From positions 2,939,198 to 3,003,197 of the forward strand of contig BCIX01000001.1 of NCBI GenBank assembly GCA_001600095.1: a stretch of DNA of 64,000 nucleotides, in the 5' to 3' direction. Below the pieces are notes generated by a model that saw only the letters and a list, made by a program, of their open reading frames with translations, did no database searches and had not been told where the DNA came from. This document shows positions 7,406 to 56,664 of the stretch, piece by piece. This stretch comes from Bullera alba (taxonomy: Eukaryota; Basidiomycota; Tremellomycetes; Tremellales; Bulleraceae). The translations under genes were made by a program, and so were the position numbers. How positions within the stretch are numbered: position 1 is the first letter of the stretch; each line of letters opens with the position of its first letter.

Positions 7406-9895
7406 CTATCTCGGCACTTTGCTCAAGACCCCCTGCTCGGCTTCTGCCTCTGGGCTGACTGGCGGTTTCTCTTCGACGTCTTCTGACTCTGTTGACGGTA
7501 TAGGCTGTCGATGCCTGTCCAAGCTGTAGTTCTTGGTGAACAAAGTGATCTAGACAATCCGGTCAGTCCCCATTTTCACACGAAGCGGCCCTGGCTGGCT
7601 ATGGCAGGGTCACGATAGCCTCTCTTACTCACGACTAAGGCGAAACCAAGCAGCCCACAGCCAATGATCCAACACAACTTGAAAGAATCCGAAAAGGCAT
7701 TCAACACCTCGATCTTGGTGATCTCATCTGGGATCTCCTGTAACGCTCGGTAATCCTCCGTATTGCGAGGTACCTTGAACTCGGAACCGTAACCCGGTAT
7801 TTTGCTAAATTTCGTTCGCAGTTCCGAGTTGAGCAATGCAGTGAATATAGCCACTCCTACACACAGGCTCAATTCAGCTGTCCGACCGCACTCCATTGAT
7901 AGGTATTGCAACTCACCGACTGACGCGGCTATTGACCTGACTAGCATCACGGCCATCATGCTCGCGGCCATGTCCTTATCTGGCATAGCGGCCTGCACGA
8001 TCATCATGGGCGTTTGTATGGCGAGCCCGATTCCAGCACCGGGCAGAATCTGAATGCCCTCCTGAGTCGCATACGACACGTCTCGCTTGAGCAAAGCGGC
8101 AAAGAGGCCGTATCCGAGACACGACATGAAATGTCCCGCCCACACGATCGGTCGTGTGATCTGCCATCGATTGGTGATCTGACCAGAGATGATGACAAAG
8201 ACCGAGGTGACTAGGGAGAAGGGGATGATTGCCTCGCCGGACTTGAGCGAGTCGAAACCCCTCACCTAAGCGAATATCAGATGTGATCGTACGAGATGGA
8301 TGATGTATGCTCACTCCTTGGAAGAACTGAGGAAGGAGGAAATTCGCCGGCATGAAGATCATAGAGTTCATGAAGGCGCCAATGGTGAAGAAGAGTGTCG
8401 TCCGATTCCGCATCAGACGCTACGCGCCGTTCGATCAGTCATTGATCCCAACCTGATCATTCTTGTGACTTACAGGAGGTATAATAGCATTACGCTTAGT
8501 GCGGAACGAGTGTATTATGCTGAGTATAAGCAGCACACCACCGCTGACAATCGTTGCGTAGGCTGAAGGCGCATCAAAGCCTTCGTCTGCGGCCTGGGAG
8601 AAGCCAACGATGATGAGCGCCGCGCCGCACATGATAAGGATTCTGCAAAGGACAGGACAGGTAAGCTTGATCCTGAGTTGGCTGAGCTATAGTGTACTCA
8701 CAGGCCAATGAAGTCGAAGGATTTGCGCAGTCCTTGCACTGAGGCGCCAGTCGGTTTCTTCAGATGTAACGTGAAGAACAGGGCCAGGAAGGCAACTCCG
8801 CAAGTTGGCAAGTTGAGGTCTGTTACGTTCAGCCTACATCCCGTTACTGTTTCGGCTCGACTCACAGAAGCACCATCTCCTACACTCCGGATCAGCATCG
8901 ATCACCTACGCTTACGAGCGATCGGATTACTCACCACGTCGTCTTCTGGGTGATCAATCCTCCCAGAATGGGACCCATGACCGCGGCGACGCCGAATCCG
9001 GCTCCGAGATAACCTTGATACGCGGCCCTCTTGTGCATCGGCACAATATCCCCAATGATAATCATCGTCAGACCAATGATCGGTCCACCCCCAAGACCAG
9101 TGAGAAACCTCGCCGCGATGAGCATTTCTATGCTTGTTGAAGCACCACAAACGGCTGAAAAGACCAAGAGGAGGAGAATGGCAGCGAGGAGCATCTGCTT
9201 TCGACCGATAATGTCAGACACTCGACCATTGATGGGCATCAGAAGCGTCTGCGCAAGGAGATATGACTGCAAGGACGGTCAGACCGGCGCTATGGGGTGA
9301 TGACTCGGGGACAAGGTACTCACTGTACCTATCCAGGAGAATTGGGTATGTGAAGCATTCAGCTCGGCAGCGATCGTCGGTAATGCTGTAGCGATGATCT
9401 ATGGCTCTTAGCCCAACTTCACAGTCAATACAGAACAGAGCCGACTCACCGTCTGATCCATTGAGGCGATGAAGAGTACCAGACACAGCGCAGGCATCAC
9501 CAAAAGCAGGTTGTTCTTCGGCTGCTCGTCGCCTATGAGTCAGGTCAGCATTCTGCAACTCGAACAACATATGCCTTAGTGAACGCACCAAATACATGGT
9601 GATCCTCTTCCTCTGCTGCTTCACCACTGAACTTTCTTCCAGCTGCCTCCAGCTCATCGCCCTTGATTGACGAAGCGTCCGTTTCATCATACACGCTGAG
9701 TTTTCGCGGCTGCCCAGCAGGACCCGCAAGTCCACCGCCGTCTGTCCGACTACTCTTGCTGATCCTGCTGGCGCGACTGTTCATCCTATGAATGTCTTCC
9801 AGCATGACTGCCCCAGCAGCCGCGTCCGCCGGCGCGCCCGCCGACGCTGGGATCACGCTGGCATTGCTGTCTTGGCGGTGAAATCGATTCGACAT
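7406..9895 (-). CDS. MFS transporter, DHA2 (14-TM drug:H+ antiporter-like) family
   Basis: A plasma- or vacuolar-membrane secondary transporter spread over about ten exons. A 110-residue Ser/Asp/Glu-rich cytosolic N-terminus leads into TM1 'LLLVMPALCLVLFIASMDQT' followed by 'IIATALPTIAAEL', the D1 motif of drug:H+ antiporters. Motif A is 'NGRVSDIIGRKQML' and motif C is 'GFGVAAVMGPILGG'. Many later hydrophobic segments are present ('IIPFSLVTSVFVIISG', 'CWIIGCGLLGFAL'). The C-terminus 'FTKNYSLDRHRQPIPS' ... 'LSKVPR' is reached through an intron at about 7530-7615. Relatives include fungal efflux pumps and vacuolar basic amino acid transporters (VBA type); sequence alone does not settle the substrate. 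The start at 9895 is the first Met of the open frame. Confidence 0.85.
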
Positions 9896-17306: not shown

Positions 17307-20251
17307 CTACTGCCCCTCTGAAGCCTTGACCATCTTCAGCACGATCCCGTGATACTCCTCCCAAGCGCCAATCAATTCTTTCTGAGCTTGTATCTGCCCT
17401 TCAAGATACACCTCCAAGACCCGCTTGAACTCTTCCACCCGCTCGCGCTCGAAACGGGCAAACTCGGCCTTGACCAATTTGGACACTGCCTCAAACTCGT
17501 TGAAAGCGTCACGCCCTCGTCTCTCGGCCTGAGCAGCAGAAGATCAGCATCGACTCGTACCCAATCTGACCAGTGCTTACTCACCTCGCCAATCTCCATG
17601 AGACTCTGGTTGACTCTATCGCCCAGTTTGCCCTGCTGCTTCAATTTCTCCCGCGTAGTCCTCAACCTGCCCGCCTCCTTCTCCGCATTCTGCCACCGCT
17701 CATAACACTTGATTCGACTTGTGAAAGCGCCCCTGACGCTGCCGATGAACCGGACGTATTCATCGGACAAGTTGAGCAAGTCGACCACTTGCTTCTTTGC
17801 CAACTCCTCGCTCAGCTCTTTCTCGCGGTTGATCAGGTCGCCTAGTCTCGCGAGGTTGCTGCACATCGAGCTATTGAGGTCCGACTCGACCAGCCTGGAG
17901 ATGGAGTCGGAGAAGTCGCCGAGGGCATTGATCATGTCAATCTTTTGCTTGGACGACTGTTCGATCGATTTCGAGAGGACCTTGAGCTGTGATTCCATGG
18001 CGTCGAGGAACGATTTCCGGGATTCAAACCATTCGTCCTTTTCCACAAACTTGTTGCCCGCGGTCCAACTTGACAAAACGCCCGACTGCTGCTTTTCATG
18101 TTGTTGCAGTGCCAAGGCCTCGTTCCGCCGGTTCTTCGACTCGATCGCAAAGTGGTCAGACTCGAGGAACAGCCGGAGATCGGGGTCGAGTTGGAGTACT
18201 GGATGTCCAGTGATCTTGGTCAGACACCTCTCCAATGCAAGTCGTCGAGACTCGATAAACGTGTCTTGAAATCGGCCGAATGGGTGTTTGTCCGGAACGG
18301 GCGGGACAATGACACCAGGGTTGTTCATCGTCAATGTTTCGTACAGCCATAAAAAGTCGGAGAATCGCCTGAGCACGGAAAAGTCACCGCGTCGATAATG
18401 AGGTGAGGTCGTGCTGGTTCGTACAGTGTACACTGTGTATCCACGGACTGGATCTCCGACTCGCGTTGGATCACTGATACTGATTTGGAACAGTGGCTTT
18501 GCGAGCATCTTACTCTGGCGAGGCGTACCACTCGACGACTTTGATGGCGATAGAATCTCGCCTCGAGGCGATTTCGGCGTTGCGGGCGAGTTTGTCGAAA
18601 TGTCCAAGGACTGCGTCCACCGTTCTCGAGCGCTGGCGCTGCTCTGCATCCGGGTGTGTGTAGGACGTGAAGGCGGAAGACTCTCCACGCCTGGCTCTCC
18701 CCAACCATTCTCCTCTGGCGCCCAGCTCTTGGCACTGGGACCCCCTTTGCCGAACAGCCCCTGATCGTCTTCGTCGTCCATCGCGCCCCAACCCTTGCCA
18801 GCGAAACGAGATGCGCTGGCAGCGGGCGTCGTCCAGCCTTGAGTTTGGTGTTCGGGCGACTTGGGCGGTGGAGATGGCGGTTGAGACATGCTGCTTGCGC
18901 CAATGCTGAGCGCTTGGAACCCGCTATCGAGATCGTCGTTGGTTGGCGCGTCGAGTGGGGACACGGCGACTCGGTCCACCGAGGGTGTCTCTAACGTGGC
19001 CGACAGAGCAGGCGAGGGTCCAGTGATATTTTCTGTGGGCTGCGCTTTGGGGCTTGGTGGTCGGGTGGGTACCGGCGTCACGGCTTCAGAAGCAGGCAGA
19101 GGGACAGCGGTCGGGTCTCGTGAGACAGTGGGAGTGAGGTCATGGCTGATTGAGGGAGAGGAGGTAGCGGCTTCGGTCGCGGACGTCGCAGTGTCTGCTA
19201 CGTCTGTCACTCTCACAGCGGGCGGATCAGACGGGTCCGACACTGCCTCTGCTCCTTCCTGCGAAGTCTGGGCCGGGTCTGGCTTGACGTCGCTCCCATC
19301 ATCGAGAGCTCCTTGCTCCTTCTCCTTGGGCGTGGCCTCCACCTCGACACTCTCAGAGCCCTTTGTAGGACCCTCAGCGGCCTTGCCCAGAGCTGGATCC
19401 TGTGTCGTCTGTCCATCGCCGTTAGGTCTCCTGCTGTCCGGTCGTGAGCCGTTTGCCAGCACGGTCACATCCTTGTCCCCCTTGTCTTCCTTCTCCACCT
19501 TGTCCCCCTTAAGGCCGTTCTGCTCCTTCTTCTCTGGCTTTACTGGCTCAGCCGCCGCCTCCTTGGCTACAGGCGTATTCGACCTCTTTCCCGGTGTGAA
19601 CACATGCGTCTTTGGCTTGACATCGACCGCCTTGCCGGCTGTCGGGCGACTTGCTGGCGTGGGGGCAGACTTGACGAATGCCTTTTTGAGGGACAGAGAC
19701 GGGTCTGAAGCCGCGAGCAGGTCCTCATCTATGAGATCGGATGGTAAACCCTTTCGTCCAGGCAGAGAGGACTGTTGTGCTTGTGTCTGCGAATCTGGGG
19801 CTGGTGATGAGATTGGGGGTTGAAAGGGCGGTATCGAGGGTTGTTGAAATGGAATAGCGAATGGATCTTCCCCTCCAAACCCTTCTCCTGCTCCATTACT
19901 ATATCCACCTCCATTGTAGGCATTGGTAGGTGCAAGCTCGGGATTGGAGTATGGGGAGTTGAAGGTCTCTTGTTCTCTAGCGGCAATGACGCTCGGTGGA
20001 TCTACTGCGTCAACACGCCCTCTATCCTCCTGTATCCTCTGCACATATGGGCTCGTGGTCTCTACAGTGGGCGATGGAGGCGCTGCGAAAGAGGGCAGGG
20101 CGGATGTCGAGGCGAAGGGGTCAGAGGAGGGCGTGTCGGAGAATGGGTTGGCCCAGGGGTCGGCATCCGCCTGTGGGGAAGACCAAGATGGTACGGCTGC
20201 CGCGGTCGTCGACTGCGATAGCATTCGTGCGAAAGCATCTTCTTCGTCCAT
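17307..20251 (-). CDS. VPS5: Sorting nexin VPS5 (retromer PX-BAR subunit)
   Basis: VPS5 forms the membrane-bending retromer coat with VPS17 and recycles receptors from endosomes to the Golgi. Two exons, 17585-20251 and 17307-17528, encode 962 residues. About 580 N-terminal residues are disordered and Ser/Pro/Glu-rich, opening with 'MDEEDAFARMLSQSTT'. The PX domain (about 584-705) contains 'VYTVRTSTTSPHYRRGDFSV', 'LRRFSDFLWLYETL', 'VPPVPDKHPFGRF' and 'FIESRRLALERCLTKI'; the Arg-Arg-Phe and Pro-Pro-Val-Pro-x-Lys blocks bind phosphatidylinositol 3-phosphate. The C-terminal BAR helices (about 715-960) include 'LKVLSKSIEQSSKQKIDMIN' and, in the last exon, 'LVKAEFARFERERVEEFKRV'. The retained Arg-Arg-Phe pocket and overall order favour VPS5 over VPS17. 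The N-terminal extension is longer than in yeast. Confidence 0.93.
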
Positions 20252-20518
20252 TGCAGTTGCGAGATTGAGGCGTGAACGCCTGGGTATAAGAGATGCGAGG
20301 AAATCTGAGTTGAGTAGTGTGAAAGGTGTGTCAAACAGTAAAGGCAGTTGGAATGGACGTTGACGCGAGACGGTCGGATTGAATCATGTCGGCACATCCG
20401 ACGAGCCGAAGCGATGCTGCGATGGCGTCTAAGGTGCATATGATGATTCACTCCGTGTCTATGCGCCATGCCAGCTACTGTATCGCCTGATGCTCAATGC
20501 TACCACAGCTACCATGCC

Positions 20519-40400: not shown

Positions 40401-43400
40401 GAGAATATGGTCAAATCTGATCCGACACCTCAATACGATCCGAGAAGACAATGACAACACCGATCTATACCACACCGGACTCAGTCAGGTCGCTCGACAT
40501 TTGGTGCAAATCCTCAACAGGGAGCCAGAGTCGTATCTCCCCGCCAATCACGTCGATCAAGAAGGCAAATGTCGCGAGGACACCAACTTGATCCGGCTCA
40601 ACATGTTCAATCATCTGTTCAACGTCACCCGAGCTATCCTCGTACCCGATCAAATTGGCAATGTCGTCGTCCCGGTCTCATCAACCGCCGACGATGTTGA
40701 AGCCGCCATTGTCAAGGCGGCAGTCAGTCGAGATGTCAATGGTGGTTCGACTATCGCTGGCCGGCTATTGGGCCAGATTCTCCAGACAAAAGTATTCCAG
40801 ACGCCCATGGAACCAGAGGCTTCCGCGCTGTTCAAGTCCGTCTTGAACAAGGTGATTGATGCCGGAGCAGTCAGGGGTCAGTCAGGCAAGCTGCTGGGAG
40901 ACTTGACAAACCACATGCCATGGATATTCGCAGACGACGAATCGTTGCAGCTCGACGTATGGCGGGTCCTAGGTTGGTTGTTTCGGCTATAGTTTGTGCA
41001 CGAGCTGACGGAACTCCAGTCGCCAGATGGATACAAGTGATCGACCTGCAGCCTTCCGCCTCCGCCTCAAGCACCAATCATACCGGAGCCTTGCTCGTTT
41101 CGCTTCTGTCATGTCCGTTCCGCGGCAAGCAGGTCACATCAATCTGGCATCACCGAGCCAGTACAGAGGATCTGCAGATTTGGGACGCTTTGCTCGAAGT
41201 TACCATCAAGCGATTCCGCGCCAAGCGTGTCGGGTCAAACTTTGGTGTGCTTGAATCACTGGCTGGTCATCTGTCAGATTACCTGAATGAAGGCGAGAAG
41301 ACGAGGTTCGTGACCTTGTGTGGCTCTTGTGGATCATTCGCAGCTGACAGATTGACAGCTCATCTACCATCACGCTCTCTTGCTTGGCCCGTGCTGCTGG
41401 TTGGATTGCCTTTGTGGAGCCGCAAGCTCATCACGCCTCTCACTTCTCCATCAGCGAGAACTTTGTCCCCGTTGACTTCCTCAGCCTCGTATCACAGGCC
41501 TTGTTCGAGTCGTACCCTCAAAGTGATACGTTGGCTGCCGTTTCGCAGAGAGCCAATGTGCCAATCAGTGAAGCTCTGGACGAGCTGCTCGGGAAGCTCA
41601 ATTCAATGATCATCGCTCTCCCATCAGAATTTGTTTGGCCTGTCATCGAGGCCTGCTCCCCCGGTATGGCTGTCTGGTTGAAAGATGACGCGCATATTGT
41701 CCCGGAGTCGACCGCCAATACAGTAAGTGTAACGCAAAGCAATATCCGACCGCGACTGATTCCTATACAGCTCGATCAGCTGTATTGCAACATACTGTCC
41801 GCACTCTCTCGCGCCGTTACCGCGGGTCACATCGCAGCCACATCCGAGACCCTGGACAATACGATCCAACTCTTCGCTCCCCGACTATCGCGCTCGCAGT
41901 CGGCTGAGGTAGTCAAAGCCTTCCCCAACTTCTATACATCCAACTTCAGCAAGGTTGACTCGGCCCAAATGTCTGAGCATGTCCGGCAATTCCTTTACGA
42001 CTTCATCTCAGCCGTTCCAGGGATCATCGCCGTGCCAGGGTTGGTGGTCGTCGAGACACTTTCTCAGGTGTGTAGCTGGGCGATGCTCCTGTTTAGGCTA
42101 GGAAGCTGATCCGATCTTCTCAGGAGGAAAGCCAGTCTGGCTTCCCCAACGCTCAAGGCTACATTGCCCCTGTCATGCCAGAAGAAGAGGTCGCCACCGC
42201 CGATCTTGACATCACAGTCGATGCGACACCATCATCAGACCCCCAACCCGACACAACAGCGGACTACGACGCCGACGTGTCCCAAACTCAGCAAACGCAG
42301 GTCAAAACCCGAGCGACGACTCGGTCAGCTCACAAGGCTAGCCCTGTTATCATTCCTGAGCCCGAGACGACGCCCAAGTCGTCTCCTCGACACAAGGGCA
42401 AAGGCAAAGCGAAAGACGTCGTGCCAGAGCCCGCCGAGCCAGTTCCGTCCCCATCTGCGGAAGAGAAGGACGTTTTCGGTCCGACTAAGGTGGCGATCGC
42501 AAAGCCCAAACGGGGAAGGAAGGGCAAAAGAGGTAGTAATCTCCGTCCAGTGGGAGATGCAGAGTGTGAGTCCCTTTCAGTCACAGTTTGTGCCGGACTG
42601 ATGATCGGCATAGCTTTACCTGCGCCCAAACGAGCCAAGAGCCCCGAGGAGACTCAAGACGACGATTCGAGATCTTTGCCCGCTGCGACCCCTCTCGTGC
42701 CAGAATCTCCAGAAGACCTCGTGCGACCAGCCGAAGATGTCCCTTCGCACATCACGGAGCCATCACTCGCAGCCAATGGCGACGGCGATTCGACCGAGAT
42801 CTCAGACCAAGTCATCGAAGGCACGTCAAGCGGGTCGCAACACGCTGGCCCAAGTCAACTTGGTCAAAGTCATCCTGGCAAGGGTCGACACTCGCTCCTC
42901 AACTCGGCCAAGAGCTGGTTCCGACCAGTCTTCAGCGGTATTTTCAGCCCCTCCCATGAGTTCGACGCCGCTGGACCATCAGATGTACAGATGGCCGGCT
43001 CCGGAGCGGACATGGATGACCAGGACAACATGGATCAAGACGCTCCAGCAGCTGCTGCTGGCAACGACAAAGCCCCAGCTATCTCGGAACCAAACTCGAG
43101 CAATCTCAAGAATGTCACTCCTAAAGCATCCCCTGAGAAGGATTCTCCGGGATCCAGTAAATCCAGCCGCAAATCCCGACGGCAGCTCGCTCGACAGGCC
43201 AGGAAGAACGGCCAAGTCCCATCGCCAGCCCCAGTCATTGATATGTCGCAAGACGACGAGGTTGAGCCCGTACAGAAGGAGAGCAAGGGCAAAGGCCGAA
43301 AGAGATCCAAAGGGTCTGTTAGGGTCGAAGCTTCGAGTTCAGACATCGACCCATCTTCTCAGGCATCCATCGAGGAGAGTCAGCTGGACGACGAGGACGA

Positions 43401-43929
43401 CGACGTGCTGCTGCTCAGTCCGGAGTCTGCCAGGAAACGCAGACGTGAAGAGGACGAGGAGGTTGAGGTCGAGGTGCTCAAACGTGAGTCACCAAATGAT
43501 CCTCGCCACGTACAACATCGAAGCAAGGGGCTGACCCGAAGTCTAGGCGTTGAGACTACACCTTCGAAATCCCGAACTCGAAGCAAAGGACGAACGCTAC
43601 GAAATCAAAATGCCTTGGAGGCCAACAGTCCCCAAGAGCCAAGTGGTCGATTCGACGACGCTCCCGAGTCTTCAGGCAGCCTGGCACAGAGAGTGTCTGA
43701 TACCACAGGCGTCACCGACTCGCCGGCCCGGACGACGCAACAGCAACGTGTACTGTCGATGCTGGACGAGGCGGTGAGAAGTAAAGCTGTGGTCGACGCC
43801 ATGAACTTTGACGACTTGCTCCGTTTCATGGGCAAATTGGACGCATTGAAGGGCGTCGCTCAGAAAAGCTTGGAGAGGAGGATCCTGGACCAGCGAGCAG
43901 CCAAAAAGTCGAGACGAGAGAAGATGTAA
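37465..43929 (+). CDS. RIF1: RIF1-like telomere / replication-timing protein
   Basis: RIF1 recruits protein phosphatase 1 to chromatin to restrain replication origins and acts at telomeres and double-strand breaks. About ten exons begin with 37465-37591 and 37699-39461. Near the N-terminus 'RGVYF' (residues 47-51) matches the RVxF PP1-docking pattern and 'GILK' (105-108) matches the SILK pattern, the pair used by RIF1. A long alpha-helical HEAT-like array follows, including 'ATLKFLSFLLSTPHLYGCLS', 'PRSYYLSIVVIAQLKVP'-like segments, 'MRNKAATALAAITSAKLN' and 'WACATWACLVTMM'. The C-terminal third is disordered, acidic and Ser-rich with Arg/Lys-Ser patches, ending in a helix 'MNFDDLLRFMGKLDALKGVA'. 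Length (roughly 1,950 residues) and order fit RIF1. There is no catalytic domain. The call rests on architecture and PP1 motifs and is therefore probable, not certain. Confidence 0.75.
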
Positions 43930-44228
43930 CAAACGCTAAATCAGAGGAAGAGAGGAGAGGACGACTGAATAAAGAGTACTGTGTAAGAAGCATAACGAGG
44001 ACCCACGAGTGGAAGTGAACTGTGAACCCAAGTAGAAGTATCTTGTCCCCACCATATATTGATAGACCTGCACGTGCACAGCACCATCTTTGTAGAGTAG
44101 ATAGTGTACATACATGTGATATAATGCACGATGAGTGCATCGCAATCGTGAGGGCGCGAAGCCATAAGGGTTCGTACACTCGAGAACTCTACAGTGATAT
44201 CGATGGTGTGTACGGATGGAGGTGATGT

Positions 44229-47200
44229 CTACGGCTTTGCAGTGTCCTGAGGCTCGGTTGCTGGAGCTATAGCCTTAGGAGCCCTCTTCCTCCTTGCCTC
44301 GGTGACGGCTTTGAGTATCTCGGCGTTCTTTTCTAGGATGCCTTTATAGACAGACTTTTGCAAGGGCGTCAATGATATAGGAACGATGATCTCGATCTGA
44401 AGCAAGTCAGCCTTCCACAGCTCGGAGACAGGGGTCACCTGTGAAGCTGACTTACTTTGAGCGGTAGTTTAAGCACATCCGCTTTGATCCTTCGAAGGAT
44501 GTACGGCTTGATCATCTCGTGTAGTTCCTGGATGAGACCTTCGTTGAGATCGGCAAACCTCGCCTCGAGATCCGCCAAGTCCCTGGGAAACGAGTCGTCA
44601 GTATTCGTACGGCTACGGGTGCGGCACACAAAAAATACGCACCTGAAAGTCTCTTTGTCCAGGAAGTTCAGCAGGTTGAACAGCTCCCTCAGATTATTGT
44701 TCAGCGGAGTTCCAGTGAGCAGGATCCGATGAACCGTGTTGAGCGTTTTCAGCCGGTTGAAGATGAGGTTACTGTCTGATTTGACTGTCCCCAATGTCAA
44801 CACTATACTGCTTGAGAAGCCCAGTCCGGTAACTCACGTCTTTGACCTTCGTCGACGCAGAGCATCTCCCAACGAGGGATGTCAGAGAAGACACGGAACT
44901 CGTTGCCAGTTATCATGTCGTATGTCGTCAACACGATGTGGCTGTACGAACGTCCGTCAGACATTCGCTGGAACTGAAAGGGTGGTATACAATGCTACTC
45001 ACGCTTTCAGTCCTACTGCTTTGCCTTGCTGACTCTTGTGGTATAGCTCGTACTGGGAGATCACCTTTCGAGCTACCAACAACATCAGTATCCCAGTATC
45101 CTGAAGGGACCACATCGTATTTCCACTCACATGCCGCTTCGCCGTAGTAAGGAACCTGGATTACCTATTAGCTCTAAGACGGGTCTGAAAGGCAACACTA
45201 TACTGACGACACGAAGATGGGGAACCCATTTTTCAAACTCTCGGACCCAGTTGGTGATCGTCCTAGATACCGTCAGCGTCAGCACTAGCTAGCGGCATAT
45301 GAAATGCACTTACGAATTCGGCACGACCACCAGACAAGGGTAAATCTTGAATTCATCAGAGCCTAGATACCCCAGCAACGAGGCGATTTGGACGCTGATT
45401 GAGCGTCAGCTTCATATTCCAGAACGAGGTCAAGGAGGCTTACGTCTTTCCCAGACCCATATCATCTGCCAAGATACACGACTCTCGTCTGAAGTACTTG
45501 TAGAGCAGCCATTGGAAGCCCTCCATCTAAGTTCCGAGGTCAGCTCTCCATTTGCACACGACGGACCGCTGTTGCGTTTACCTGGAATGGCATGAGGGTC
45601 TGAGAAAGCCGTACTGTCAGCTCCTATAATCAGTCCGACAGAACCAGACTCACTCCGCCGACCAGACACGCTGGCTGCTCTGTAGGTGGCTCTCGCACTC
45701 GTGCAGCCTCGGCCTCTCGCGCCTGTCGTTGCTTTGGGGTGAGGACCGGAATGACCACCTGTCTTGCCTTGAGATATCGTTCCAGTGCGTGCTTGAAGGC
45801 AGGGTACAAGGGAGAGTCGACCGGTGGCGGAGTATCCCAACATGCTAGTAACGGCGTCAGCGGGATAGATGAGTGTCTCAAGACTTTGTTTGTGACCTAC
45901 ATTGGTCGTACTGGAGATCGTCCCATTTGACCTTGACCAAACCATCAGCTGCTAGCTCTGTGGGCTTCATAACTTGACTTACTAGGCACCACGTCACCAG
46001 CGGAGCGACCATGTCGATGTCCCGCTCAGTCAGTGTCTTCCCAGTACTCTCCTCCCACACGTCGATGTCCATCCTGTCCGTACTGGGAGGTTCCATGCCA
46101 TCAGGCCTGTGGGGAGCAACAACCTGAACGTCCTCGTCGTCGTTAGAAGGAGATGGCGACGCTGATACAGACAGTACTCTACCACCACGCTTCAGAGCCT
46201 GGTGTTTGGGCTTAGGTTTCGCCTTGGGCTTTGGCGGGACCAGCATGACATCCAAGACCCGGTCGACGGTCTGATATCGTCATCAGTACGATTCCTCTAT
46301 CTCGTGGACACCCGCTCACCCTCCACGCGTTTGGGATACTGGCCTCGGCATTGACGTCCGGTGCTGGACCATGACCCTGCCATTGATCAGGCTGGTTGTG
46401 GTGTCCCTTGCTTCTGCTCCCATTGACGCGGTCATCTTCCGCCATGACTTTCGCAATGGTCGGTTCGGCGATATCGTCTCCGGCCGCTGCTAAAGTCTGA
46501 TCCGTGATCAGGTTCAGAGCGGGCCCCTTCTCGAGGAATGAGCGCAGCTTCTGTCGGGCGATCTCCTTCAACCACCAATGAGGAACCCATGTGGCCTGTC
46601 GACCAACAGATCAGTCAGGAATAAAGAACTTCAGGCCTGTACTGACGTGTCGGAAGCCCCTGAGAGTCCACTTGACGAGGTATTCCCGCTGTAATGCCTC
46701 TTTGTAATCTGGCTTGTGATCGAGCTCCTCTGGGATGCTTTGGGCATCGGGAGGGAGTGGTCGCCAAGCACATATCTAGCTTCTGTCAGCTGTAGCACGA
46801 CGACAATTCACTGAACTTACGATGTCCACGGTCCACGGCCACTCGCGGCACTTATGACAATGCCAAGCATCAACTTTCTTCTGAGCCCGCTGATAGTGCT
46901 CCGCTCTCTCTGCCAGGCTCTCGGGACCATCTCCTTCCACTGGCTTCACTACAAGGGAAGTGAGCACGTACTCAAGCTGGACCCTTTATGCTACTCACTA
47001 TGTTCGTAGTGGCATGACGAGTGGCATCGGTGGCACCTGAAGAGCAGTGCTACCTCTGCTCGAGGCTTCTGATCGTCGAGCGGATCGTTTTCCTCCTGCA
47101 TCTTGATGTCGCCGTCTTTGTCTTTGACACCTGCCGGGGCTGTCGCTGCATCGACGACCTTCTCTTCGTGGCATTCGAAGCACTTGGGGTCCGCTGTGCA

Positions 47201-49093
47201 TCTAGTGCAGACAAAAGTCGCCTGTTCGTCGATGCCCAGAGATCTTCTTGGCTTCTCCCCAGCATCAGGGGGTCCCTCCTTAACCAGAAGGTCACTGAGC
47301 ACCTGTTTTTGCTGACCGGCCCCAAGGCAATTCTGATCCCAGAGCATATCAGCTTCTGAAGCCGTCTGAAAGACTTGTTTGGACCTACCCAGTGCGACGA
47401 TATGACACATTTCTCGCACTAGGATACGGGCCGTTAGCTTTCGTGGTTTGCGAAGGAAAGGCTCGACACGCACCTCGAGCCAGCCCAACAGAAGATGTGC
47501 CTGCTCTCCATCCGAGATCTCGTCGTCGTCCTGCTTCTTTCGCTTGCCAGATTTCAGCTTCCTCTTGGTTGCTTTCTCGAGCATGACATCGGCTCTCTCC
47601 CTCGAGCATTTCTCGCAGAACTGAGAGAGGGCAGTCAGCACAGCTAGATTTCGGGCACCTATCTTCGACTCACGGGTCTATGTTGCTGTAGAGCCTTGGA
47701 TATGACTTCAGGCTCAACGACCAAGCGATCCTCTTCACTGTCTACCTCACTCTCCCCCAGTCGATACTCTTCTATCTCATCCTCGCCCTCGGGTTCGCTG
47801 GATCCAGCCTGCTCCTGGATGCCATCGGGTTCAGAGCCATCGGAGTCTTCAGCCTGCTTTCGCATGCTCCTTCTAGGTGACCGAGTCGGTTTGATCGACC
47901 TGTGATGGCTGTAGGAAGATGCGATAGAGTCGCCTCTACTCTGTCGTGGACGATTCTGGCAGGATAGAGAGTCAGCGCGTATCACCAACTGTCTCTTCGT
48001 TCTGAAGTATACTGATGAACCTCCTTTGTAGGATCTTTGAGATCGTCCACGACAAAGGAGAGCTATACCGGCAGCCAGTGAGGCCGGGGAGGGAAGCAGT
48101 GATATTGGCAGAAGGAGTGGCACTCACCCTCTCCCTCAAAGCCCATTCCTTAGGCTTAGGCTTGGCTTCACGCTGGCCAGCTTTTCCACGTCCTCTTGAG
48201 TTGACCCTGGTTCGCTTGGATCTTCGCATGGCAAGCTCATCTTCGCTCTCCGACTCTACATCTCCTTCTTGATCTCCCTCTGATTCTTCCAGGCCATACT
48301 CGCCATCTGAGCTTGGTTTCACTTTTCTAGCTGCACTCCACCGCGACGGGACGTTGACAGCTCGACGAGAAGGCGGTTCTCTCTTTGGTTTGGCCATCAC
48401 CGTGAGAGGGGTGAAGGAGGAAGTACTGCTTGACGGATCACCTCTTGCGCTGCTTTCCTGCAGCGTTTTGTCTCGAGATTTATGTGTAGATCGCTTCGAA
48501 GGGTTATCGTGTTTGTAGGTCCGAAGTGTCGAGAGCGACATGAAGGGGATCTCCACAACCACGTCTTGCGGTGCAGCTGATCGCATAATGGGTGGAAATC
48601 GCAAGGGAGATGATGTCGTAGATTCGGATGGAGTGGGTGGGACTTGCCTCGCCTTTTCTTTTCCTTTACCCTTGCGGTCCGTGCGCGGAACCACCATCAC
48701 TGATTCCCCGTCCGAGCTCGCCTGTCCATATCGCCCATCCAATCCACCTATCACTTCGAAATCTGACGCTTCATCTCTCTCAGAGCTGAGGGCGAGCGGA
48801 TCGGTCGATACTGTCGGAGCTTTGTCTGGACTGAAAGATGAGCTGGAGCGGGGATAGAAGAGGGGTGTCTCTGCTCGAGGTCTTCTCGTAGAACTCGTAC
48901 GTGGTCGAGTGCTGGTCTGGTGCAGTGACCGTGCTGTGGACGCTGGGCGAGAGGATGTCCCGATTCCCTGGTCCATCTCTGACAGTCCTCTGAAGTCTTG
49001 TCCCACGTGCTCGTCATCAGAGCTCTCGATCCGTATAACGCGCTGATGAACATGTCGCCCAGACATCATGCCAATCCTTGACTCGCGAACCAT
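44229..49093 (-). CDS. N-terminal half of a CHD/Mi-2 (Mit1)-type remodeler: PHD-like fingers, chromodomains, RecA lobe 1 only
   Basis: Starts 'MVRESRIGMMSGRHVHQRVI' with an in-frame TGA 12 bases upstream. About 450 disordered residues precede Cys/His clusters 'FCEKCSRERADVM', 'VCTRCTADPKCFECHEEK', 'LFRCHRCHSSCHYEH' and 'WHCHKCREWPW', typical of fungal Mi-2 PHD fingers. Chromodomain-like blocks 'EYLVKWTLRGFRHATWVPHW' and 'VTWCLVKWDDLQYDQ' follow. Lobe 1 of the SNF2 motor is complete: 'MEGFQWLLYKYFRRESCILA' plus Walker A 'DDMGLGKT' (45445-45468), motif II 'VDEGQR' (DEGQ at 44842-44853), motif III 'HRILLTGTPLNNNLRELF', then 'PYILRRIKADVLKLPLK'. The protein stops after 'YKGILEKNAEILKAVTEARR' ... 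'TAKP'; lobe 2 is absent downstream. Lobe 2 of the same class is encoded by the adjacent upstream gene at 49575-53074. Alone this protein cannot be a complete ATPase. Confidence 0.88.
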
Positions 49094-49574
49094 TTGGTTT
49101 GATCAGTCGTGAGACCGAGTTGTGTCGGACAGGTGGTTCAATCTTGAAATGCTAGCTCGACCGCCAAATGTTGCCCTGCGTAGCTTGGGCACTACAGCTC
49201 CCTACCATAGTGCTGATCTGTTCGTGCTGGTCGACTGATTCTTGCGCTGAGCCAGCAACATTTGGCATCTTCAGTCTTTGGCCAGGCCTGACTTGATCTT
49301 ACCCCGCGTTTACCCCGTGTTTCATCGCGTCGGTGGTGGCAAACTGAGTGGCAAGGGTGGCGACGACAAGCCTCCGGCCAACGCCTACTGCCAACATCAT
49401 GACCTCGGATCGGGGTTACTCGTGCATGGATGTTGTCTATGCTGGACATGACTCGTATCTATGTATACAGTATTGCTATGATACACTCGTGCGATGCGGA
49501 GACGAGTACGTGAGATGCGTGATGGGTCATGAGTGGTCGTGAATCTCGTAATCATCATCGTCGAATGCTGCCAC
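49094..49574. promoter_or_regulatory. Spacer between the two remodeler half-genes
   Basis: These 481 bases follow the stop of the lobe-2 gene and precede the ATG of the lobe-1 gene. The lobe-1 frame has a stop at 49103-49105, so simple read-through fusion is excluded. The spacer contains two near-identical copies of a 'TACCCCGNGTTT'-like string (about 49300-49325 on the plus strand). It presumably holds one terminator and one promoter. Confidence 0.5.
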
Positions 49575-52500
49575 TTACTTGGGCCACTATAACCTCCGAC
49601 GTCAGCGTCGACCGACAACTCGATTTGTTCATAATCTTACTCACGTATGAATAACAGTCGAAAAGCTTTTTCATGGTGGCTGCCGGCCGGCCTTTGGATT
49701 GAGGAGACGCCGCTCGCTCTTCCTCCTCTGCTTGACGGATACTCGCCTTGAGTGCCTTTCTCCCTCGAGCGACGCCGCCAGCGCGATTGATGGCACACTG
49801 GCTGATCGTGTAGCCACATGCAGCTCGACAGAATGGACAAGGGTGCTGCAGGTTACCGCTATATGATCCCGAGGGGTCCACTATCTTCGCTGCCTCGAGG
49901 TGGTCGCAAAGGCTTTTCCACGCAGGACCGCTGCGTTCCTCAGGTCCGCGGCTCGAGAGCGAGCTGAGGTGTAATCAGTATTCAGGTCGGACCCTGACCA
50001 CTCCTGATTCCTATTCACCTCTCAATGGTAACGGGACCCAGCTTGACAATGGGACAATCTCGCAAAGGCTCTTGATTGCCTTGGCAGAATGTGCAAGGCC
50101 CTGAAAGATCCGGTCCCGCGCTTCTTGCTCGTTTGGACGGACGAACTTCTCCGGTAGGCTCGTCGTCATCTTCGACGACAATTGCTGCTTCTCTTGATCC
50201 TGGTAGCGATGTGGTTCCCATCGTTCCTTTTGGTGGTGTCTGCTTAACGGGAGCTACGTGTGGGCTACTTGTACTTGTTCCCATGCGCACCTCCTCCGGT
50301 CTCCGAATCTCGTCCAGGTGAGCCTATTGGGTGGTGGATGTCAGTGGGCTCTCTGGTAGCTATATGAGATACTGACCTCTATGCCAGGAAGCGCCATATT
50401 CGTTGACTCCGGGGTACGCGATGCCGCTGACGCTTCCTTGCTTGGCTGTCGCCTGCAGTCCGACTCAGTGTGACCAGGCTGTGCGCATTGCGAAGAGATG
50501 ATTTTCACGCCGTGTCCTGGCGCTGCAGTTTCAGGTATGGCTACTGCTGGCACCGGTGTCGATCTCGAGGGTCCAGGAAGCGGATCAGAGGGCTTGATTG
50601 GACCAATCGATGTCTCCTGGTACGGTTGCGGGAGGCTGGCCTCGGCATTCCTGTTGTTGAGCGTTCGGTGGGCTTGCAATGGCCGGCGCTTGAACTGTTC
50701 GGGAATTGGGGGGATCGGGTAATCGTCACTATCCGGCATGATTGACCTGCCGGACAAAAGGACCGGTAGGACTGCGTTGACTTGGGCCGGTGAAGTGAAG
50801 TATGTGCCACCTGATGGATTCGTCTTCATCAAGTAGCTATCCGTCTTTTCCGCTAATTCGAGGTACACTGACTTCCGTTGGTCGCCGTCGATTTCGGGTA
50901 CGCCCATGAGGCCCCATTTCATTACACTCTTTTGATCGCCCGTCTCCAGGAGGACGTGGTACAGCCAGTAACAGATGTCGATAGCTTGAGCAATCTGGGC
51001 ACCTGCGACAATGAGATTGCCCCTGCTTGCCGTAGTGCCGTTGACAGATCTGGGGGGTGCCGCTGGAGCAGTGATCGGCTGGGTCTTCTCTGGCGACTGT
51101 GGTCGGGCGGGCTCTGGCATTGGAGGAAGGCGGGGTTGCTGTGGAGCAGGCACTGCATTGGCGATTGCTCCGTTTTGCAGCATGCTCTCGTAGGCACGCT
51201 GACTTCGTTCCGCCTTTTTCTGCTTCTTGGCCTGTAGTCTCGCACTGCGCTCTTCTGGTGTCTCTTCTGGCTTCTGGGCGATGGTTGAAGGATCGGCCGT
51301 TGCATTATTACCTTCGGCGGCGTCTTTCATCACCATCTCTTGGGCTCTGGCGATGGCCAATTTCTGTTCCGGTGTCAACGCAGACAGTAGTGAATTCGTC
51401 GATAAGAGTGGATTCGCTAAAGGCTTCTTCGAAACCACCGGTTCACCGCTCAGAGGATCCAGCTCGCGAATGCCACCATCGCTATCCGACTCAGACTCGG
51501 ACTCCGATTCCCTGACCTGGAAGTCGGCGTCTGACGAGTCTATGGCATCCGACTTGCGCTTCTTCTTCCCCTTCTTATTGGCCTTATGGGGGGAGCCATC
51601 GGAGAGTGACGCGTCGAGACCGTACTTGACTTTCGAGGCTGCTAGTCTTCTTCTTCCTACCAGAGCCTCGGCATCTCGGGCTGCTTGAGCTTTTTTGGCG
51701 TTCTCCATAATCACCTTCCACGCATTATCCATCTCTTCCGCGTTGACAGCCTCGTTCTCGTCTACCTCTTGCAACCGACTTTGATCGTGTTCCCAGATCT
51801 TGGCGAAACCAAAAGACATTGTTTCCTTTGCTTTGGCCGCTCCGGCCTCCTCACCTTCTTCAGGCTCAGTGACCCCATCCACCTTCGCCTTGTCTCTTTT
51901 CTCCATCGCTATAGCCTCCACTTCAGCATCTTGCTGAACCCTCTCGATCAGGTTTTCGACATCCTGAGCGGTGTATCGTATATCGGAGGCCGCGATCCCA
52001 TCCTCATTTGACTCGTATAGGGCTGCTGCTCCATGTAACAGCATGCTGTCGATTTCTCCTTCCTCGCTGTCTTTGCCCATCTGTTGGACTACCAGGTGAT
52101 CGAGCACCATTTTCTTCTTGCCATTCAGTATGATTTGCTCTGCGCAAGAAGCGTCAGCTTGCTGTGACAGCGCGCATAATCTTATGTGGAAGCTGACTCA
52201 CCTTCCACGCTGTTCTTCATCATAAGCTTGAACACCATGACTCGCTTCTTCTGGCCGTATCGGTGACTTCTCGCGATTGCCTGGATTGGTGGATGAGCGG
52301 ATGAGACATGACTGGTCAGGTGTCTGGCATACTTACCTGCAGGTCCATGTGGGGATTGAAGTCAGGATCGTATACGATCACTATATATTCGATCAGCCTG
52401 TCAACCTCGATTGGTCAGACTAATAGTCACACTACACACCTATATCGGCAGTAGCTAGGTTGATACCGACTCCTCCTGCTCTCGTTGTCAGGAGAAAGAT

Positions 52501-53074
52501 GAAAAACTCGGAGTCGGGGGCATTGAATGCGTCCATGGACTTTTGTCTCTCTGCTTGTGGTACGTCGCCATCTAGCCTGAGAAACTTGTACCCTTCTCCA
52601 TACATGAAGTCCTCGACTAAGAAGCAGATAAGTCAGTCAGTCTTTTTTAGCTCTCGTCTGGGCTTGCCCATTGCCCATTGGCGTCATACCAGCACAGTCA
52701 CTCACTTCGGTCAAGAGCTATTTTGAACTAAGTCTTCGTCAGTATGCTATCCCGAAGTTGTGTAGCGTGTATTGGCCTACTTGGGAGAAGAGCAGAACTC
52801 TGTGACCCCTCTCTTTCAACTTTGGCAGCAGGAGCTTGAGGAAGGCCAACTTCCCAGATCCCTCTACGAGCTGCTTCTGTTGCTGGTCCTGAGGCAGATC
52901 CTCATTCTCGAGCTCCGGAGCTGATAGGTACGGATGTTGGCAGACCTTTCTCAGCTACGTTCGCCACTGTCAGCGAGTGCTTGACCCATGACATCAGAGG
53001 TGCAGCCGGAGGCCCTTCGAAGAAGGCCCACTCACCTCCATGAGGATATTCTTCATTGTCTTGACGGGCGCCAT
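49575..53074 (-). CDS. C-terminal half of a CHD/Mi-2 (Mit1)-type remodeler: RecA lobe 2 and C-terminal tail only
   Basis: Starts at 53074 '[13 protein letters not shown]' and splices to '[20 protein letters not shown]'. An in-frame stop lies 15 codons upstream (53117-53119). It then holds every lobe-2 SNF2 motif: '[11 protein letters not shown]' (IV), '[20 protein letters not shown]', '[17 protein letters not shown]' (V), '[15 protein letters not shown]' with '[14 protein letters not shown]' (VI), and '[20 protein letters not shown]'. About 600 acidic, Ser/Pro-rich residues follow with three Cys clusters near the C-terminus ('[11 protein letters not shown]', '[14 protein letters not shown]', '[15 protein letters not shown]'). 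The proposed end is 'CYSYWPK' at 49575, after an intron at about 49593-49643. There is no Walker A or DEGQ box anywhere upstream, so this is not a full helicase. The missing lobe lies in the next gene downstream. Confidence 0.88.
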
Positions 53075-53728
53075 GGTGTATGCCTGTGATTGCTGTCCCG
53101 GATGCGCTGGTAGAGACTATGCAGTACCTGGACTAGGTACGAATACCCAGGCTGGTCGGTACCGCCTCTTCAGGCTATCGACGAAGAAGCTGAAGAGGAG
53201 ACCGAAGAGAGATTGATGTTGCCGGAAATCAAAAGTCAATCTCGCGACGCGACCGATTTGTTGTTGCCAAACGATCGTTCTGTGGGCACCGACCAGACTA
53301 CGACTTCAATTCGGGTTTGCCTGGTTTTGCTAAGTAAGGCTGCTTGGCGATAAGAGGGGAAGAGGAAGTGAGAAGATTGGGGGAAGAGATAAATATATGG
53401 CCGTGGACAGCCTACACCCTTCCTCTGTCCGTCCTCCCTAACGACCATATCTCGCGGGTGAGCCTCACAAAGGATTCAGCTTGCTTCGGTGTGACGAGCC
53501 TGGACAGCGGATGGCGATCTCGAGAGCATTCATCTTGACAAAGGAGTGCCGGGAGTCAGTTAGGCGTGTATCGTCATACCACCCATCCAACTTGTGGCAT
53601 GATCAACGATGCTCCCTGATCGACATTCACTCTATTCACAACTGCATAGCTGATCCGGATTAATCACCTTCCGCCCTGGATCCAGTCTCCACCTCCTTGA
53701 CTTGACTCGGTATACTGATCGGTCTATC
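53075..53728. promoter_or_regulatory. Intergenic upstream of the lobe-2 gene, no lobe-1 remnant seen
   Basis: These 654 bases lie between the MetRS stop and the lobe-2 start, both minus-strand. I looked for leftover lobe-1 or chromodomain coding and found none. The 71-residue minus frame at 53236-53448 shows no SNF2 similarity. A pyrimidine-rich stretch on the minus strand near 53180-53220 could be promoter or leader. Confidence 0.5.
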
Positions 53729-56664
53729 TTAGATCGTGGTCTCCTTCAACTTCTTTCTCAGCTCGGCCAGCTCCGTCTTCAAGCTCTTTGCCGTAGCCAT
53801 CTCCTTCTCCACATCTCCCTCGGCATTACCTCTTTTGATCTGAGCGACAAGTCGGCCTTGACTCTCGATCTTTGTTTCCAACTCTCTCTCCTCAGGCGAC
53901 TTCTTCGCATCGGCAGCGGCAGCAGCGGCTTTCTTGTCTTTGGCGGCCTGTGCCTGTCGCGCAGCATGGGCGGCCTTCTTGTCCGCGTCGATCTCCTTGA
54001 CCTTGGGCACTTTACCGCCTTCTGGGTGGCCTCCTGGTCCGGAGGGGTCGACTTGCTCTGCCACCACTGAGTCGCCACCAAACTGCTTCTGCCACTTCTT
54101 CTCCTGCTCTCCGTTGACGTTCTCGATCTTCTTGAACAGGTACTCTGCTTTGCCAAGCTGATGACCAGGTAGAATATCGATGCTGAACACCGTGGGCAAA
54201 CTTCGCGCAGGCGCGTTCAGTTGGCGCAGAATACCGGTAGCAGTCGAAGGCATGAACGGGTGAATTGCCGCGGAAAGCAGGTAGATCAAATTGACAGCGT
54301 TGAGGATGACTTGAGCACATCGCTCTGGACGGTTCGCTAATAGCGAGTTGTCGAGGCCGGCTTCTTGCAGATATTGGTTACCTCTGGATGAGATGGACAT
54401 AGCTGCAGCGAGACCAGCTCGAAGTTTCGTGTCCTCCATCAAGTCTCTGTACTCCAAAAGCCGAGCATTGACGTCTTTGACAAAGTTGGCGTCGACCTCG
54501 GATTCCGGTGTCGATGAGGAGTGCAACTTGGACGGCTCTCCACCTTCGAAGCCTTCGGGCCCGGGTACGATCGAGTCGTACTTTGCGTTTGCGAATTTGA
54601 TGGCCTAAGCGTGTTGTCAGCAATCTCTCTCTCCCCTTGCACGACCGACTTACTCTGTTCACGAAGTTGCCCAAGTTGGCCAGCAGCTCGTTGTTGTTGG
54701 CGGAGATGAAGTTGGCCCAGAGGAAAGCGGAATCACTAGACTCGGGTCTTTGGGAGATCAGGTAGTATCGCCAGACCGAAGGAGGCTGGCCGGTCTCCTG
54801 GGCATTGTTGCCGAACACGCTGAGAAATCGTGAGCTCTTGTCTGCATCGAGAGCGCAGGGTTTACTGACCCGACATTTCTACTCTTACTGAACTTGGTGT
54901 CCTCGTAATTGAGATACTCTATGTTCGCTTAGCTCCAGGTAGCCCCTCTCAGGCTATACACTCACGGGTGCTGGAGATGTTGTGAAGCATGGTCCAGGGT
55001 CTGCCATCACCTAGAAGCATGGAAGGGAACAATACAGTGTGGAAGTAGACGTCTTGAGAGAGGTCAGGCGGTTCTCGCGATGCATGTTGATACTCACTGT
55101 CTTTACCCATGAACTGGTAAAGGTCCACGTTGTCCGGGTTCATCCACCACTTCTTCCACTGGTCGGTGTACGTGGCAGTGATCGAAGGATACCCGACAGG
55201 AGCATCGAACTGGTCATCGATCAGCTCAGTCTACGCATATGCTGTTTGCTTTCACGGACTCACCCAGACGTCTAGTCATAAGTTTCCATCAGCGTCTATC
55301 CTTTCTCACGTTCTGATACAGGACTCACAGATGACCTTTCCTTCGAGAGCATCATCTTCCTCCTTCTTGCCGACCTTCGGCACTTCGACTCCCCACTTGA
55401 GATCCCTAGTCACGGCACTCGGCCTCAATCCCTCTCCCAGCATTCTCGGCTCGATGATCTCTCCTTTCTCCGTGATGACAGCGTTCGATCCCCATTTTCC
55501 CTTGACTCGCGCTTTCTGCATCCACTCTTCCAGTCTTGGCTGCAATTTGTCCAGTCTCACACAAGCGTGGGTCGAAGGTCGAACGGAGATTTTGTGGGTC
55601 TTGTTCCGTTTGCATCTAGGGTGCAACAATTCCGTAGGCGAGGAGAATGTCAAAGAGCACTTGTCACATTGGTCTCCACGAGCGTCCTAGAGTCGGTGTC
55701 AGATATTATGACACATATTTGGGTGCACTCACGTCGTAGCCACACTGAGGGCAGACTCCCTCAACGAAACGGTCTGCCAGGAAGAGCTTGTCATCCTCGC
55801 AGTACGTCTGGTCGGCCGTCTCGAGCTGGAACAGGTCATTGTCATGCAGGTTGCGGTAGACCTCCTGAGTGATCCTGTTGTGCCCGGTCAGTCAACGTCC
55901 CCTTCCTGCCAGTACTGACTCACTCGGTGTGCTCCGGAGTCGACGTTCGTCCCCACTTGTCGAAGCCCAGCTCGAACCATCTAAGCCGATTCAGTAAGGG
56001 AAGAGGAGTGAGGAGACCAGCCATAACTCACTCGTAGATGGCAGTATGTAGTTTGTGAAACTTTGTCGTCAACTCCATCGGCGTGACACCTTCTTCCAAA
56101 GCCTGTTGTTGTGTCAGCCCAGCTGCTATGCGGGACCAGCTTTTCAACTGACCTTAGTCTCTGTGGCAGTTCCATACTCGTCAGTACCGCAGATCTAGGG
56201 GGTGGTCAGCTTCCGCAAAGCTTCGACAAAGGAGTCCGAGCTCGAAGTGGGCTCGTTGCTTGATAAGCAGGAAAGTGTACTGACGTATAGAGTGGGCACG
56301 TTGAGCGTTCTGCAGTATCTCGCGAAGACGTCCGCCGATAGAGTCGAGCTGATAACGTCAATTTGAGTGCCCTATACATGTATCTGCTTTGGCTCACCCG
56401 ATGATGTTACCGAGATGAGGAACGTTGTTCACGTCTACGACACATTAGTCTCTGCTCTCGTCCGCAAGTAGCTTGTCGACCCACATGGAAGGGCGGAAGT
56501 AACAAGGACGTTCCGCTGTCCGTCTTTGGGCAGGCTAAGCAGCTTGTATGAGCTCCTTCCTCCCCTTACCTCTGCCAGCCTTCGTCTACTCACACTGGTC
56601 CTTTGGACGGATCATGGATCTCCATGAGCAGCCCGTCGGCTTGCCGCAGACGTTGTCCTGACAT
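53729..56664 (-). CDS. MES1: Cytoplasmic methionyl-tRNA synthetase with C-terminal WHEP-like domain
   Basis: Class I synthetase charging tRNA-Met in the cytosol; at least ten exons. The start at 56664 gives '[20 protein letters not shown]'. The Rossmann fold opens '[20 protein letters not shown]' (HIGH-type motif PHLGN), then '[20 protein letters not shown]'. A zinc-binding knuckle reads '[18 protein letters not shown]'; later '[17 protein letters not shown]' and the KMSKS-type '[16 protein letters not shown]'. An anticodon-binding helical domain follows ('[20 protein letters not shown]'). The C-terminus '[20 protein letters not shown]' to '[14 protein letters not shown]' matches the WHEP helix-turn-helix of animal MetRS. 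The N-terminal GST-like domain of yeast Mes1 is absent. Identity is certain; exon borders are approximate. Confidence 0.95.

Follow-up and report, generated by a model that had tools for sequence, protein, structure and literature searches.

Two adjacent minus-strand genes of Bullera alba divide the lobes of a SNF2 motor in permuted order, suggesting fission of a Mit1/CHD-type remodeler gene

A 64,000-nucleotide stretch of the Bullera alba genome (contig BCIX01000001.1, positions 2,939,198 to 3,003,197; hereafter the window, whose numbering is used throughout) carries two minus-strand genes, here called A and B, that divide the two lobes of a SNF2 ATPase between them within an 8.8-kb unit. Gene A (49093 to 44229; 22 exons, 1238 amino acids) comprises an N-terminal region, PHD-like zinc fingers, two chromodomain-like regions and SNF2 lobe 1 with motifs I–III, and gene B (53074 to 49575; 10 exons, 977 amino acids) comprises SNF2 lobe 2 with motifs IV–VI, a C-terminal bridge-like segment and a long tail with Cys-rich stretches. 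Both hand-built splice models run without an internal stop. The locus thus departs from an ordinary SNF2 gene, in which both lobes lie on one chain with lobe 1 first: read along the minus strand, gene B (lobe 2) is followed by a 481-bp gap and then by gene A (lobe 1), a permuted order. An initial annotation had given the coordinates and content of the two halves, and both hold, with the two genes on the minus strand; the permuted order was absent from it. Judged from the coding sequences, the arrangement would reflect fission of a Mit1/CHD3-4-type gene with circular permutation, the halves probably still cooperating as a two-polypeptide ATPase, a reading to which we assign a probability of about one in two.

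Comparison with structurally characterized proteins (phmmer against PDB chains) reveals that the two halves are complementary. Lobe 1 of gene A matches residues 728–1002 of the CHD4 chain 6ryr_W (E 3.6e-61, the top match, followed by CHD1 at 2.2e-54), and gene B from residue 7 onward matches residues 1011–1204 of the same chain (8.8e-57). The two matches have no overlap and leave 8 residues between them, in agreement with the initial annotation, which had described the halves as complementary and unshared. The numbering of the 6ryr chain equals that of the CHD4 structure paper plus 3, an offset under which Leu1009, Asn1010, Arg1127, Trp1148 and Arg1162, as named in the available text of PMC7338049, fit the letters; in the paper's numbering, the split falls at CHD4 residues 1000–1007. 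Gene B sequence beyond lobe 2 continues to match CHD4, while matches of the lobe itself are near-equal for SNF2h (4.8e-58), CHD4 (8.8e-57) and ISW1 (1.2e-56).

Lobe 1 occupies gene A residues 953–1219 (44289..45587) and yields a SNF2-rel_dom match of 223.1 bits spanning profile positions 1–269 of 290; a ResIII match (17.2 bits) falls below its Pfam cut-off of 22.5. Specifically, motif I (Walker A) reads ADDMGLGKT at 45394..45469, with its last codon split by the intron 45443–45395, motif II (Walker B) reads DEGQ at 44842..44853 and aligns with the DEAH of CHD4, and motif III reads LLTGTPLNNN at 44693..44722. The gene then ends (44229..44306) with 25 residues past the last CHD4-matching residue and a stop codon. 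N-terminal to the lobe, a Mit1-type chromodomain stretch at residues 860–910 (45768..46027) scores 34.2 bits against Chromo_MIT1 (cut-off 27), covering profile positions 32–82 of 82. The PHD-like zinc-finger region at residues 478–634 (46848..47479 including introns; zf-PHD-like 26.2 bits, cut-off 27) and the first chromodomain-like stretch at residues 662–709 (46527..46721; Pfam Chromo 21.0 bits, cut-off 25.1) lie below threshold, so that the initial annotation's reading of gene A stands for motifs I–III and for one chromodomain, and its fingers and first chromodomain are sub-threshold likenesses.

In gene B, Pfam reports Helicase_C at 87.2 bits (profile positions 3–110 of 110) over residues 49–161 (52254..52849) and HDA2-3 at 47.9 bits, and no SNF2-rel_dom match. 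Motif IV reads RVLLFSQ at 52781..52801, motif V lies at 52456..52488, and motif VI at 52251..52280 includes the letter at CHD4 Arg1162, an arginine finger; the letters at CHD4 Arg1127 and Arg1162 are both conserved. The gene opens with a short exon (53036..53074) whose ATG stands in the context CACCATGG, and an intron separates E13 from L14. This is the first in-frame ATG and lies six residues before the start quoted in the initial annotation, which begins at residue 7; the gene coordinates given there are correct. Together, the domains of A and B resemble Mit1 of the Schizosaccharomyces pombe SHREC complex and CHD3/CHD4 (Mi-2), which have a PHD-like finger (in gene A a likeness just under threshold), chromodomain-like regions, both lobes and a long C-terminal tail, the Mit1 layout being taken from a diagram legend (PMC6499331). 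Mit1 and CHD3/CHD4, however, are single polypeptides, whereas here the lobes sit on two genes in swapped order.

The splice models, built from reading frames, GT-AG sites and SNF2 homology, bear the marks of real genes. All 30 introns, 45–89 bases long, begin with GT, end with AG and contain a branch-like [CT]TNAY, and in 26 of them CTRAY lies 14–24 bases before the acceptor (gene A: CTRAY in 18/21 and CTNAY in 20/21; gene B: 8/9 and 9/9). The same CTRAY placement is found at 172 of 4412 other minus-strand AGs (3.9%) and at 25 of 763 inside the locus. Because branch sites played no part in choosing the introns, they constitute independent evidence for real spliced genes. Additionally, the two alternative frames of each spliced coding sequence contain 36 and 46 stops in gene A and 37 and 29 in gene B, against none in the coding frame, and codon usage correlates between A and B at r = 0.88, compared with 0.74–0.86 between either gene and two neighbours and 0.87 between the neighbours themselves. 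The least certain splice calls are gene A intron 2 (48020–47956) and the last intron of gene B.

The same data bear on the idea that the remodeler was lost through a recent rearrangement, leaving two young, undecayed pseudogenes. The present data do not date the event, some conserved motif letters are altered, and fission yeast is viable without Mit1, all of which would suit a fresh break. Against this, the 32 model exons show no stop or frameshift and no splice site has been lost, every intron retaining its GT-AG ends and branch-like element, although a very young pseudogene would look alike and a very young break is still compatible with these counts. Moreover, the gene B ATG stands in its CACCATGG context with TATA and CT-rich DNA before it: TATATTTAT lies at 53397–53389, 323 bases upstream of the ATG, with CT-rich tracts in between. 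The initial annotation's description of separate open genes with catalytic motif letters on both sides is borne out by the models, and a fresh break is, on balance, unlikely.

The reversed order is peculiar to this locus among the lobe-1 loci scored in the 19.4-Mb genome (7 contigs). Genome-wide pairing of lobe-1 and lobe-2 profile matches (at least 51 and at least 73, respectively) gives 21 lobe-1 clusters, 18 of which have lobe 2 downstream on the same strand within 5 kb. At the cluster C1:1558594, for which profile pairing gave none, tblastn places lobe 2 downstream (L044:2653-3027, E 2e-6). The cluster C2:527044 probably also carries lobe 2 downstream, since inspection by eye finds a lobe-2-like stretch in its downstream frames (L045:7302-7352, E 1.6; 7500-7793). 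Only the gene A/B locus, among the 21 lobe-1 loci scored, has the lobes reversed. The region around the second of these clusters (L045:3000-7800, corresponding to G000:C2:527000-531800) is a SNF2-type gene in which a RING-like stretch separates lobe 1 from the probable lobe 2, the latter missed by the profile search.

Neither half has a second copy in the genome as covered by exon-level six-frame searches. A lobe-2 probe (gene B residues 1–389) gives 27 matches, 4 of them to its own locus at 82–98% identity and 23 elsewhere at 27–58%, and a 290-residue lobe-1 probe gives 24, of which 8 are its own locus (55–98%) and 16 lie elsewhere at 31–44%; the low-identity own-locus matches probably run into introns. 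Among related loci, C1:6236812 looks Chd1-like and C1:1412982 looks Swr1-like. An intact homologue elsewhere, for which the initial annotation had proposed a search, was thus not found in these searches, and within their reach the two genes are not decayed copies of an intact gene. A six-frame genome search with Chromo_MIT1 returned no match and missed the locus itself, so it is uninformative on absence. Likewise, Chromo_shadow and Arb2-like, domains of the Mit1 partners HP1 and Hda1/Clr3, respectively, gave no six-frame match, a search that intron-cut domains escape; Chromo and SET gave 5 and 10 matches. Beyond this genome, no relative came to light: genome contigs gave one short bacterial match and viral contigs none.

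The arrangement could also have arisen in assembly, through a mis-join or through collapse of a circular or tandem array with intact lobe 1–lobe 2 genes in its interior; a unit running from lobe 2 through a gene end and a promoter to lobe 1 is the picture expected of a collapsed 8.8-kb multimer. The two outer junctions, on the other hand, look as the end and the start of a gene should, the DNA outside them (861 and 621 bases) occurs once in the assembly, the contig extends for 8.0 Mb, and the repeats at 42–56 kb are all short, two-copy pairs (5 direct and 4 inverted, 17–25 bases, 76–94% alike). None of these points detects a collapsed repeat directly; taken together, they make an artefact rather unlikely. 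One inverted pair (43784–43801 and 54487–54504, 83% alike) brackets the locus, but it is weak and was taken as chance. The two tandem repeats in the window lie away from both genes.

A further way to restore a single chain would be trans-splicing of the A and B transcripts into one lobe 1–lobe 2 mRNA. The genes lie on the same strand and have many introns, and 15 acceptor-like sites at 53400–53036 exceed the 10% quantile of real acceptors. The donor side offers little to match them: among the 5 GTs in the last exon of gene A, only that at 44355 falls in the range of real donors (5.2, where the 10% quantile of the 30 donors is 4.9), its use would delete the conserved SVYKGILEKN helix, and two donor-like sites at 44113 and 44006 fall past the gene A stop. 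The splice-site scan makes a joined A–B transcript unlikely, and trans-splicing as an account of the locus is highly improbable.

The halves could instead lead separate lives, gene B in a deacetylase complex, where its lobe 2 would bind DNA as Hda2/Hda3 do, and gene A as a chromatin reader, with neither of them hydrolysing ATP. The idea deserves weight because lobe-2-like domains without lobe 1 do occur there and because the gene B lobe scores higher against HDA2-3 (52.8 bits) than do CHD4 (40.1), SNF2h (32.5) and the genome's Swr1-like protein (22.7, below cut-off). The ordinary CHD4 and SNF2h lobes also exceed the HDA2-3 cut-off, which renders the match non-discriminating, and the gene B lobe fits Helicase_C far better (91.5 bits) and retains motifs IV, V and VI. 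Gene B was accordingly rejected as an Hda2/Hda3 protein, and separate functions for the two halves are quite improbable. A genome search with HDA2-3 gave 3 matches, none above cut-off, and missed gene B itself, and so says little.

Fission of a Mit1/CHD3-4-type gene, with both products retained, would account for these features as follows. In SNF2 ATPases, ATP sits between lobe 1 (motifs I–III) and lobe 2 (motifs V–VI); here this site would, if both proteins are made, form solely in trans. The gene A protein would supply lobe 1 with its Walker A and B motifs, together with the chromatin readers, and the gene B protein would supply lobe 2 with its arginine fingers, followed by the bridge segment and the tail, with nucleosomal DNA and the bridge keeping the halves around a single ATP site. 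That DNA and the gene B bridge may hold the lobes together is suggested by analogy with CHD4, whose C-terminal bridge, docked on lobe 2, reaches toward lobe 1 (PMC7338049). A stronger form, which we advance tentatively and at somewhat less than even odds, is that the pair derived from a permuted Mit1/Mi-2-type locus would be an obligate two-subunit SNF2 motor, in which an ATP site would form only once both proteins had met on a nucleosome and remodelling could be switched via either subunit. We infer expression, assembly and activity of the pair, like the event that produced it, from the sequence.

Two routes could have led to the permuted order. In the first, the whole locus would have formed a circle that opened in the lobe linker at reinsertion; in the second, a tandem duplication would have been followed by loss of lobe 1 from the first copy and of lobe 2 from the last. 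By either path, gene B would have gained a new start and upstream region and gene A a new stop, and the data fit both alike without separating them. Duplication followed by degeneration was reportedly described as a path to gene fission by Wang et al. in 2004. No convincing remnant of the missing half lies beside either gene, judged by the top six tblastn and top five blastn matches for each pairing. The best candidate pairs gene B residues 839–902 with the left flank (E 0.010, 33% identity), contains a stop and lies outside lobe 2; the others have E values above 0.04, including gene B residues 1–16 against the end of a methionyl-tRNA ligase (E 2.0). All, the best included, were put down to chance. 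Microhomology at the breaks is likewise at about chance level, the longest exact matches between stretches of 300 and 260 bases being two of 7 bases, and similarity of the gap (49094..49574) to either half does not rise above chance.

Several features weigh against a working two-chain motor. Some usually conserved letters are altered in gene A, with ADDMGLGKT for ADEMGLGKT and TPLNNN for TPLQNN, and gene B has Phe where CHD4 has Trp1148; these changes may reflect either variation of the lineage or a relaxed constraint. Moreover, the cut site itself is not harmless, as it lies at a CHD4 loop (residues 1001–1006, including Asn1004) that contacts H3 and occupies the place of the H4 tail, and deletion of the homologous region in Chd1 abolishes remodelling (PMC7338049).

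To our knowledge, SNF2 remodelers always have both motor lobes on one chain. The initial annotation had likewise known of no two-gene SNF2 motor, and among the titles and abstract openings listed in searches of the open-access literature no SNF2 enzyme has its lobes on separate genes, which does not prove absence. The INO80/SWR1 class tolerates a long insertion between the lobes yet remains one chain despite the interruption, whereas at gene A/B the chain ends. Hda2 and Hda3 of the yeast Hda1 complex resemble gene B in having a stand-alone SNF2 lobe-2-like DNA-binding domain; they are described as non-catalytic, whereas gene B retains motifs IV–VI and lies beside a gene for lobe 1. The split reverse gyrases of the archaea Nanoarchaeum equitans and Methanopyrus kandleri are comparable to A and B as helicase-bearing enzymes made of two polypeptides; the N. 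equitans enzyme is cut between its two domains and the M. kandleri pieces lie off domain borders, and the available text of PMC8185306 describes no cut between two motor lobes. Fission of a chromatin-remodelling factor gene is also documented for nurf-1 in some Caenorhabditis species, where the gene encodes the BPTF subunit and, unlike A and B, the two genes share duplicated sequence (PMC6752949). In insect ATRX, the ADD and helicase parts are on separate proteins, but the lobes are not parted as they are here (PMC4249797). Gene fusion and fission are common in fungi, with 1,680 events in 12 proteomes, and fission is considered harder than fusion because one product requires a new control region (PMC2557144).

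Were the two-polypeptide motor real, it would show that a natural SNF2 enzyme can do without the lobe linker, provide an already divided enzyme with which to test how closure of the lobes drives DNA translocation, and stand as a clear case of gene fission via permutation. Should the halves live apart instead, the locus would show a path by which lobe-only proteins of the Hda2/Hda3 sort originate.

The 481-bp gap at 49094..49574 would combine the gene B terminator with the gene A promoter, and the single-copy region 53075..53731, from the methionyl-tRNA ligase stop to the gene B ATG, would act as the gene B promoter. Directly upstream of gene B, 53732–54604 (minus strand) holds the C-terminal exon of a methionyl-tRNA ligase of the cytoplasmic type (Anticodon_3 68.1 bits; PDB 5gl7). 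On the other side, a 584-residue open frame at 42175–43929 (plus strand) is convergent with gene A, has no Pfam match at 0.001, and may form one large gene with frames from 37596. A domain search of the gene B tail and the first 322 residues of gene A returned nothing beyond one weak hit to Rieske_3 (E 0.011), which was attributed to chance. Two Cys-rich stretches in the gene B tail, at 50054–50095 and 49795–49839 (minus strand), have a zinc-knuckle look and fall in no Pfam family. Elsewhere in the window, a 1003-residue open frame at 17375–20383 (minus strand) carries PX and Vps5 domains of the sorting nexin/retromer type.

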